Source: a bacterium (GTDB lineage: Bacteria > Elusimicrobiota > Elusimicrobia > UBA1565 > UBA9628). From it: a stretch of DNA of 32,421 bases. Location: the NCBI GenBank assembly GCA_021822495.1, contig JAKAQO010000013.1, forward strand, positions 1 through 32,421. The letters are read 5' to 3'. Numbering within the stretch: the first letter of the stretch is position 1; each line of letters starts with the position of its first letter. Of the stretch, positions 29,471 to 32,421 are shown piece after piece. Position numbers and translations under genes: made by a program. The notes beneath the pieces were generated by a model, which was not told where the DNA came from, did no database searches, and saw only the letters and a list, made by a program, of their open reading frames with translations.

Positions 29471-30091
29471 TTACGGTTCCAGGGCCTGGATGCCTTGATT
29501 TTGCGATGAATGAGTTGAAGGACTAACGCTCGCAAGGTTTGACTTGGTCCAAAGTCCGGCTTTAAGCCCGGCCTGCTGACAGCCAAAAGGCAGTTGCGCA
29601 AGATTGTCCTTGAGACAGCGGGACACGCCTTTTTCGGTCGTCTCCTGGTAACAGAGACCGAGAATTTGGGGTTTACAGAAATTAAATACGAGCGTTCGAT
29701 AGGCGTAATGCTGAATTTGAGGCATTTGTTCGCGGCAAGAAGAAGAAAGTTTTTTTTGATTATTTAAAAGGCATTGGGAGGCGGGGCCGTATCCGCTCAT
29801 TTGACTGGCGCAATACTTGGATAAATCATGGCTACAGGCATGGAGGAGTTGAGCCGCTTTTTGATGAGCCGCCTTCACCTTTTTTCGGCAATCTGTTGAG
29901 AGACGGTTTTTATGCGCTTCCAGGCAGCGCAGTCTTTCCGGCATCGTCTTTGCCTCCTGGCAATAATCATGGATTTCTTTTCCGCACCAACCGTAGATGA
30001 TTTTAGGCTTGGCCGCCCCTTTAATTTCAGATGCCCAAGAAAGCCTTGCCGCAGCAATAAGGATTAAAATAATTGCCCCTGTCTTTTTCAT
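29471..30091 (-). CDS. Exported cysteine-rich repeat protein (GLG1-like repeats)
   Basis: The 206-residue protein has a signal peptide (about 1-20). The mature part contains three units of four cysteines: 36/44/56/68, 86/94/107/119 and 139/147/159/171. Spacing within each unit is nearly the same (8, 12-13, 12), and the units are about 50 residues apart, with D/E-I/L and C-L conserved in each. This is the cysteine-rich repeat pattern known from Golgi apparatus protein 1 and found in various bacterial exported proteins. Disulfides should form outside the cytoplasm. The start overlaps the end of the fibre-like gene as ATGA, and no separate ribosome site is seen, so coupled translation is likely. 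The role is unknown. Confidence 0.8.
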   Translation of the reverse strand: MKKTGAIILILIAAARLSWASEIKGAAKPKIIYGWCGKEIHDYCQEAKTMPERLRCLEAHKNRLSTDCRKKVKAAHQKAAQLLHACSHDLSKYCASQMSGYGPASQCLLNNQKKLSSSCREQMPQIQHYAYRTLVFNFCKPQILGLCYQETTEKGVSRCLKDNLAQLPFGCQQAGLKAGLWTKSNLASVSPSTHSSQNQGIQALEP

Positions 30092-30927
30092 GGATTATGG
30101 TTGCCTGGCACATATCCTACATTAATGTTCGAGCATATCCCTCGGTTGTCCCATTCCCAATTGCCGTTACAACCCGACTGCCAACGATTGATGCAGTAAG
30201 AGGTAATTAAGTAGGGAGTTTCTGCTGGACAAGGCGGGAGAGGTTTACATGAATTACTACATGGAGCATCTGATTCAACGCCACCAAGCTTCTCTGCTGA
30301 CCCGCTACCCCACGCCCCATCTCCATATTGATCCGTAGCCATCCAAACGTTTCCGGGCGTGACGCTGTTTTGTGGAGAATTGATTCTCAATATCGGATTA
30401 GCGCAAGGGTTGCAACCATAAGAACCGCAACAGGTTGTCATTGTCGGTTCAACATCTAAAGTCGCCTGCGGATTACTTGTCCCGAGGCCGACTTTACCAT
30501 CAAGAAATAAATTGGCCATCCCCGAGCCGTTGAAATACCCCAGGCGTTCATATTGTCCGGAGTCGCTAACATTGACGACTCCATATTTCGAAGGGCTCGC
30601 GGCGCTGCCATGGATTCGGATGGAGTCCAAGGTTCCATTATCTTGCGCGAAGATATTGACTTTCACTCCCGATGTCGCTTGATTACTTCCAATTTCCACA
30701 AAACTCGGAGTTCCTCCAGCTTGAGGATCACGGGCAAGCCAGGTATTTCCAATCGTCACCATATTGTTGTAAGCCCCGGCAGGAGCGGGATAATAAGTGG
30801 AAAGAGTGATATCTTCAGTGGCAATGGGCTGAGTTAAAAGCGCGAGCAAGACTGCGGATAAAAAAAGGGCGGCTTCACCGCGCGAGAGTTTAAGCCGAAA
30901 TTGATGGAGATGAACTTTTTTTTCCAT
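30088..30927 (-). CDS. Fibre-like surface protein
   Basis: The 279-residue protein has an N-terminal hydrophobic helix (about 13-36), then I-T-L-S-T-Y-Y-P-A-P-A-G-A-Y-N-N-M, a motif I associate with surface or pilin-like proteins of Elusimicrobiota/Omnitrophota-type genomes. Next comes a beta-rich part with G-L-G-T-S-N-P-Q-A-T-L-D-V, the motif of tail-fibre-like repeats. The C-terminal half has many cysteines (T-C-C-G-S-Y-G-C-N-P-C and more), suggesting disulfide stabilisation. It is probably exported and exposed on the cell surface. The ATG at 30927 is only about 4-10 nt from the predicted transcription start, so the mRNA is nearly leaderless. The promoter contains a run of nine C. It overlaps the cysteine-repeat gene by 4 nt. 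Confidence 0.78.
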   Translation of the reverse strand: MEKKVHLHQFRLKLSRGEAALFLSAVLLALLTQPIATEDITLSTYYPAPAGAYNNMVTIGNTWLARDPQAGGTPSFVEIGSNQATSGVKVNIFAQDNGTLDSIRIHGSAASPSKYGVVNVSDSGQYERLGYFNGSGMANLFLDGKVGLGTSNPQATLDVEPTMTTCCGSYGCNPCANPILRINSPQNSVTPGNVWMATDQYGDGAWGSGSAEKLGGVESDAPCSNSCKPLPPCPAETPYLITSYCINRWQSGCNGNWEWDNRGICSNINVGYVPGNHNP

Positions 30928-30937
30928 CGGTCCTATG

Positions 30938-30967
30938 AGTATATCCCCCCCCCACCGCGTTTGTCAA
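30938..30967 (-). promoter_or_regulatory. Promoter with a C9/G9 homopolymer spacer, overlapping the tgt stop
   Basis: On the minus strand TTGACA (30962-30967) and TATACT (30938-30943) are separated by 18 nt. The spacer contains nine consecutive G (30945-30953 on the plus strand as C). The -35 hexamer includes the stop codon of tgt. Gaining or losing one base would change the spacer to 17 or 19. Confidence 0.8.
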
Positions 30968-32121
30968 GGGGAAAAATGATCATGAGCCAAAACGTCTTTG
31001 GAATCCTTCTTGATTTGGGAAAAAAATTCCCGTTTTTTTTCGGTAAAAGAGCCGTCCAAAATGCTTTGCCGAATTTCGCGGGCTAAAACCAGCATCAGGT
31101 GAATGTTATGATAGGAAATCAAGCGATGGGCTGAAAGCTCGCGGCTCCGGTGAAGATGAGAGAGATAGGCCTTTGAATACCTTCGGCAGACAAAGCAGGA
31201 ACAAGAAGACTCAAGAGGCTTAAAATTGGTCCGGCAAAGACTGTTGGAGATATTGTATTTTCCCACACGGGTCATCACCTGGCCATTTCGGGCCACCCGG
31301 GTCGGCCAAACACAATCCATCATATCTACCCCCAAGGCGACCGCCTCCCATAAATCTTCCGGCGTTCCCACGCCCATGAGATAGCGCGGTTTTTGCTCGG
31401 GAAGAGATTGAACCGTCTTGTCCAGAATTTCCCACGTTAGTTCCTTGGGTTCTCCAACCGAAAAACCGCCGAGAGAAATTCCATCGGTCTTAATTTGGCT
31501 CATGTGTTCGGCCGCCCGCAGCCGCAAAGGCGCGAAAAAACCGCCCTGAAGAATGGGGAAAAAGAGAGCTTTTGAACCCTCCGCTTTTTTTTGAAGAAAT
31601 GCTTTTTCTGAAAGATCAAGCCACCTCATTGTTCGCTCAAGCGCGAGTCGAGTCTGGGCCTCATCCGAGGGATACGGCGCGCAAACATCCAAGGCCGTCC
31701 AACAATCGGAACCCAACTCCGATTGAATCTCGATCACTTTTTCCGGAGTCAGGCGGTGCGCGCTCCCGTCAATATGAGACTTAAACGAAACCCCGTGATC
31801 ATCAATAGTCCTTAAATCCGCCTGGCTTAAGACCTGAAAGCCGCCGGAATCGGTCAAAATCATGCCGTCATATTTCATGAAGCGGTGAAGTCCGCCCGCT
31901 TGCTTAATCACGGAGGTCCCGGGCCTTAAATAAAGGTGATAGCTGTTGGAGAGAATCGCCTGAACGCCCAAGGACTCTAAATCTTCCTGGGACAAAGCCT
32001 TAACCGAAGCCTGGGTCGCAACCGGCATATAAACGGGAGTCTCAACTTCTCCGTGGGCGGTTGCTAAAAGCCCAGCTCTCGCGCGGGATTTCGCGTCGCG
32101 CCCCAAAACATTAAAGCTCAT
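30964..32121 (-). CDS. tgt: tRNA-guanine(34) transglycosylase
   Basis: The 385-residue protein has the catalytic D-S-G-G-F-Q (Asp 91), [12 protein letters not shown] (nucleophile Asp near 269) and the zinc ligands C307, C309, C312 and H338. It exchanges guanine for a queuine precursor in tRNAs with GUN anticodons, using an enzyme-RNA intermediate. The usual D-E-C-x-x-Y-P motif is D-V-C-A-P-Y-P here, a position that varies in the family. Its ATG overlaps the queA stop as ATGA, so the two queuosine steps are coupled. It is a complete gene. Confidence 0.96.
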
Positions 32122-32421
32122 AAAATCAGCATCGCGTCGCCATAGGAGAAAAGACGATATTTTAAAAGAAAGGCTTCTTGGTAAATTTTAAGTAATTTCT
32201 CCCGTCCCACGAAAGCGGAAGCCAGAATTAAGGGGGTCGATTCCGGTAAATGAAAGTTGGTGATCAGGCCTGAGACCATCTTTATAGGATAACCAGGATA
32301 GACAAAAAAATCCGTCCAGCCGAAAAGGGGACTGTCCCCTTTTTCAGCCGAAAAGGGGACAGTCCCCTTTTCGGCTAAGGTTTCAAGAGTGCGGACAACC
32401 GTGGTCCCGACCGCGATAATT
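32118..32421 (-). CDS. queA: S-adenosylmethionine:tRNA ribosyltransferase-isomerase, C-terminal part, cut by window edge
   Basis: The last roughly 100 codons of queA run off the window end. Visible are [10 protein letters not shown], then [23 protein letters not shown] and Y-G-D-A-M-L-I-L, all standard QueA blocks. QueA converts preQ1 in tRNA to epoxyqueuosine using SAM, the step after Tgt. Between L-E-T-L-A and G-W-T-D there is an in-frame insertion made of two tandem palindromic repeats. Only the C-terminus is visible, so the total length cannot be given. Confidence 0.93.
32318..32376. repeat. Two tandem palindromic units inside queA
   Basis: Unit 1 (32318-32345) contains CCGAAAAGGGGACTGTCCCC followed by TTTTTC; unit 2 (32346-32376) is the same palindrome with A in place of T at its centre. 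Each unit is a near-perfect palindrome of about 28-31 bp. Both are translated in frame in queA. Confidence 0.92.

Follow-up and report, generated by a model that had tools for sequence, protein, structure and literature searches.

Promoters with a homopolymeric tract between or beside the -35 and -10 boxes are known from several bacteria. In Neisseria meningitidis porA, surface expression is graded across tracts of 11G, 10G and 9G, and escape is faster in a mutS mutant (PMC3639595). Treponema pallidum tp0126 is at its optimum when its poly-G brings the -35 and -10 boxes to a distance of 17, and the tracts of the tprL promoter vary in vivo from 7 to 11 G, with a mode of 9 (PMC7864442). Neisseria fetA and opc carry a strain-variable homopolymer at the promoter core (PMC5320596, PMC2791445), and Helicobacter canadensis possesses several poly-G tracts in predicted promoters, for which mixed lengths are found in reads (PMC2823697). 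A search of the literature for phase variation in Elusimicrobia yielded nothing of relevance.

The window, by which is meant the whole 32,421-nt stretch of Elusimicrobiota DNA analyzed here, contains a promoter of comparable layout between tgt and two genes for exported proteins. The features of the locus are as follows:

30964..32121, minus strand: tgt; its C-terminus differs from those of relatives, and its stop lies inside the -35 box
30938-30967, plus strand: promoter region, which reads AGTATATCCCCCCCCCACCGCGTTTGTCAA on this strand
30967-30962, minus strand: -35 box TTGACA, holding the tgt stop TGA (30966-30964); kept in the ortholog of genome G002
30961-30944, minus strand: 18-nt spacer AACGCGGTGGGGGGGGGA, that is, AACGCGGT-G9-A
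30953-30945, minus strand: nine consecutive G (C9 on the plus strand), the candidate slippage tract
30943-30938, minus strand: -10 box TATACT; TAAACT at the equivalent position in G002
30928..30937, minus strand: 10-nt interval CATAGGACCG from the -10 box to the ATG; the G002 counterpart is TATAGGACAT
30088..30927, minus strand: 279-aa exported protein of the DITLSTYYPAPAGAYNNM family; its GxGT-type fibre motif is KVGLGTSNPQATLDV
29471..30091, minus strand: second operon gene, for a 206-aa exported protein with Cys-rich repeats (PF00839, 6.7e-9)

The original prediction of TTGACA, 18 nt and TATACT with nine G inside the spacer is exact on the minus strand (30967-30938), and the -35 box does overlap the tgt stop. 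This promoter is the top sigma-70-type match of the region, agreeing at 11 of 12 bases, against 9 of 12 for the runner-up. The proposed likeness to porA also held: the -35/-10 spacing is a workable one, the spacer contains a simple-sequence tract, and the whole looks like a real sigma-70-type promoter. With porA it shares the poly-G in a sigma-70-type spacer, a putative exported or surface protein downstream, and a tract within the range of 9-11 (PMC3639595, PMC2791445), whereas tract variation and its effect on expression were measured for porA, the gene is unrelated, and a near-leaderless mRNA is predicted in the window. The tp0126/tpr promoters of T. pallidum likewise have poly-G between the -35 and -10 boxes, tprL mostly with 9 G (PMC7864442), but there the effect was shown in vivo and by reporter. 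By comparison, the fetA/opc tract is poly-C with documented variation, and the tracts of H. canadensis are longer (13-16) and backed by read-level evidence.

As had been predicted, the promoter is followed by an exported protein and then a cysteine-repeat protein, the genes for which overlap by 4 nt. The 206-aa product matches the Cys_rich_FGFR repeat (PF00839) at 36.1 bits, above the cut-off of 22. No match to the 279-aa protein was found in Pfam, NCBIfam or PHROG profiles; it has a hydrophobic N-terminal export segment and belongs to a lineage-wide GxGT-motif family of exported proteins, present in 38 of the 57 relatives searched. The common motif of this family is E..TL.TYYPAP.G.Y, often accompanied by GxGT..P...LDV. 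It is plausible that the protein is a surface fibre. The lack of a PHROG match does not support its identity as a phage tail fibre, and tail-fibre profiles matched only one shorter homolog (L238).

The ATG of the 279-aa open reading frame (ORF) is at 30927, 10 nt past the -10 box. Transcription is predicted to start approximately 7 nt after TATACT, which would leave an mRNA leader of about 4 nt, i.e., one that is near leaderless. Since the gap is equal in G002, and TATACT lies just 7 nt ahead of the ATG in two further relatives (G008 and G016), part of the gene family of the 279-aa protein seems to be characterized by near-leaderless translation.

The two-gene operon recurs in G002, a genome of the same genus, where protein 1 is 43% identical over 216 aligned columns and protein 2 is 61% identical. 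Its promoter there reads TTGACA-AAGGATGAGAGAGGGGA-TAAACT, then TATAGGACAT-ATG, as compared with TTGACA-AACGCGGTGGGGGGGGGA-TATACT, then CATAGGACCG-ATG, in the window. The two align in their hexamers, in the spacing to the start codon and in a ATTTTTCC stretch upstream, from which we conclude that the promoter is real and was inherited with the operon; that it is genuine is well supported by this comparison. The spacer in G002 is 17 nt long with a longest G run of four, while that of the window is one base longer. Genus-wide conservation of the poly-G is ruled out by this non-homopolymeric spacer, G002 holding the only ortholog seen. The pure G9 thus appears to be specific to the window lineage and to have arisen from a G-rich spacer and, as the homopolymer is absent in G002, switching, if any, would be specific to the window lineage as well. 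The original reading of the locus as a poly-G switch promoter stands in part: the promoter, a second copy in the genome and tract lengths that differ among relatives all speak for it, but the homopolymer is missing at the G002 ortholog.

A run of guanines is in itself unremarkable, two overlapping G8 matches being present in the window where 1.8 are expected. Pattern searches of the 2.2-Mb genome revealed 25 G-runs of at least eight, nine of them of at least nine, together with 31 TTGACA-N15-21-TATA sites (nine for the reversed pattern). Two of the nine longer runs fall within TTGACA-TATA spacers, against an expectation of 0.0006 (P(>=2) ~2e-7), which rules out chance placement. What is rare is the position of the G9 inside a near-consensus promoter, not a G9 run per se. 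The second promoter of the genome (G000:C4:193827-193858) reads TTGACA-AAACGC-G14-TATATA, with the G14 at 193839-193852 and a 20-nt spacer, and precedes a 247-aa exported ORF. Approximately 1.5 kb downstream of it is a paralogous promoter, TTGACATAACGCGAGGGCGGGTATATATATTTAGGAATGGGAATGCCGCAA, with the same leader and a non-homopolymeric spacer; here the distance to the leader-adjacent TATATA is 17 nt, the G14 copy being 3 nt longer. Another genome of the same genus, G004, carries TTGACAAAACGCGGGGGGAGGTATATA in the family of the G14 promoter. A G26 run also occurs in this genome (C26 on the coding strand; L047:2931-2956, equivalent to G000:C11:8430-8455), directly after HGLGYRF, where the DNA-binding domain of an OmpR-like regulator ends. 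This represents either switching of a C-terminal tail, as in H. canadensis (PMC2823697), or an assembly artefact.

Among 341 Elusimicrobiota genomes the pattern TTGACA-N4-9-G8-N0-3-TATA gave 15 matches in eight genomes and none when reversed; the seven genomes other than the window's own are all of family f15. One family of exported proteins (N-terminus MTSWKKYVLAAVVVTAAGFAYV...), of which the tested copy has an FGE-sulfatase domain, has promoters with G10, 11, 11, 11, 11, 12, 12 and 13 and spacers of 16-19 nt, the differences in tract length (G10-G13) being between different genes and species, with one genome per species, and not between strains. For one G11 copy (G094:C20), the product is a related exported protein whose N-terminus diverges. 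These promoters (e.g., in Elusimicrobia bacterium GWA2_56_46) come from the same phylum as the window and share its layout, as TTGACA-AAACGC-Gn-TATACT, but they serve another gene family and have conventional leaders with a ribosome-binding site. Other members of the FGE-sulfatase-type family have interrupted G-rich spacers of 16-18 nt, and the pure tracts therefore look like expansions of a common theme, the G-rich spacer.

The same observations permit a more neutral reading, namely, that the promoter is real while its G9 came about by chance or is neutral, G-rich spacers being the habit of one Elusimicrobiota promoter class (on account of a bound protein or the stiffness of the DNA) and slippage being too rare at G9 to matter. 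Many homologous promoters do have interrupted G-rich spacers of 16-18 nt, for example AATCGAGGCGGAGCGGG, ACTAGTGGTTGGGGGGA and the G002 ortholog, and both G074 and G093 have TTGACAAAA-G-rich-GGGGGGTATATT before exported ORFs. Against this, pure tracts of 9-14 recur at one position in several genera, and their spacers drift from 16 to 20 nt, with greater variation than interrupted ones (sd 1.26 vs 0.63, in small samples). We consider this reading rather unlikely. In G074 the promoter with the G-rich spacer, TTGACAAAAGGGGGTTTGGGGGGTATATT, is directly followed by a c-di-GMP-I riboswitch (RF01051) lying between it and the exported ORF (L089:2310-2454). The protein family of this ORF is also found in G091 and G093, where it adjoins ribosomal protein genes and lies behind related sequence.

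In G001, G002 and G003, tgt directly abuts a convergent PLD-domain gene with the operon absent between them; in the window the operon is placed between these two genes. The G002 operon is not located behind tgt, and the ORF upstream of it points away. The earlier suggestion that the promoter was built onto the tgt end is contradicted by these data, in that the matching promoter and operon of G002 lie elsewhere than at tgt, and tgt in G001-G003 is not followed by the operon. On the simplest reading, the operon was inserted behind tgt, bringing its own promoter, the -35 box of which now supplies the tgt stop; from the arrangement in the relatives we infer an insertion in the window lineage rather than a loss elsewhere. 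A repeated sequence of the GGGGACTGTCCCCTTTT type, probably a dispersed repeat, is found inside queA (window 32325-32370) and also adjoins another G9 run at G000:C4:379839.

The operon begins 37 nt beyond the tgt stop on the same strand, and no terminator was found between tgt and the operon, so that readthrough is possible. Were the operon expressed by queA-tgt readthrough, the promoter would be incidental and the G-run without effect; the AGGA immediately before the ATG, usable solely on a longer transcript, is congruent with this. Yet the G002 operon has the same promoter and 10-nt gap though it is not behind tgt, and we regard exclusive dependence on readthrough as improbable. That an error of sequencing or assembly produced the G-run is most improbable of all, for while poly-G is a known error type and another gene in the same assembly has the G26 tract at its 3' end, the hexamers around the nine-G tract are exact, an ortholog aligns with the promoter, and independent assemblies show similar tracts.

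The best explanation, and one that we consider probable, is a slippage-tuned sigma-70-type promoter of the porA or tp0126 type that drives an inserted operon for exported proteins. The sequence of events would have begun with the insertion of the two-gene operon, carrying its own sigma-70-type promoter, between tgt and the convergent PLD-domain gene, and the G-rich spacer would then have turned into a pure G9. Slipped-strand replication errors would add or remove one G, taking the spacer from 18 to 17 nt (G8, stronger) or to 19 nt (G10, weaker). By analogy with porA and tp0126, such changes in spacer length would tune transcription of the operon, the 18-nt state being moderately strong. Some points weigh against tuning: nine G is short for a slippery tract; an 18-nt spacer is active itself, and a shift to G8 or G10 may alter expression modestly at most; and readthrough from tgt may give a constant baseline that blunts switching. 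The genome has an intact mutS gene, so that slippage is not explained by a lost mismatch repair, and frequent slippage is not favoured. Phase variation by this promoter is likely but unproven, and it is from the resemblance to the characterized systems that we infer slippage in the window species, an effect on expression and a benefit to the cell.

Poly-G spacers are also found well beyond this phylum. A scan of the named genome collection gave at least 119 stretches from many phyla; among the matches listed, 108 of 123 sites extend to TATAAT or TATACT, though the query asked for TATA only, and the next ORF is often exported or lipoprotein-like. A second search, of 46 of these genomes, revealed 148 distinct promoters and no reversed controls, a count per genome that is biased upwards since the genomes were picked for having one site. 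Within these 46, 13 of the 19 same-genome groups with identical flanks differ in G number, a comparison that the choice of genomes leaves unaffected. A shortage of 17-nt spacers, seen as a dip among the matches listed and suggestive of too few promoters at the optimum, was small in an independent search (22 vs 27 and 36) and is therefore given no weight. Promoter sets with identical flanks and a G number 1-2 apart within one genome occur in G345, G365, G372, G374 and G375. The 1.7-Mb genome of Streptobacillus notomytis (G359; L124, L203) contains 22 promoters with a spacer poly-G of 8-11, the few of which that were read precede exported proteins; these may constitute a large switching regulon. 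A termite-gut Bacillota (G372, L146) has TTGACA-AACGCGGT-G11-TATACT, in which the eight bases before the G-run are identical to those of the window promoter. In two further loci (L277 and L278, of G217 and G224), a promoter TTGACAAAACC[GA]-G8/9-CTGTATAATAT stands at the start of each of the tandem DUF3800-V RNAs (RF02964), and the poly-G spacer is therefore present at non-coding RNA genes as well.

Promoter-spacer phase variation has been described mostly in host-adapted pathogens, and the window would represent a case in a little-studied phylum. Together with the ordinary 17-nt spacer of G002 it provides a before-and-after pair for the origin of such switches. The 148 promoters in 46 genomes suggest that the mechanism is commoner than the examined literature shows, and metagenome reads allow a direct test. 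It is conceivable, and we propose this tentatively, that poly-G-spacer promoters form a widespread, largely undescribed slippage-tuned class that serves exported proteins of uncultured bacteria (Elusimicrobiota, gut Clostridia/Bacilli, Saccharibacteria and Streptobacillus), with the copies in each genome acting as independently switching regulons, and that the window captures the birth of one out of a spacer that was no more than G-rich.
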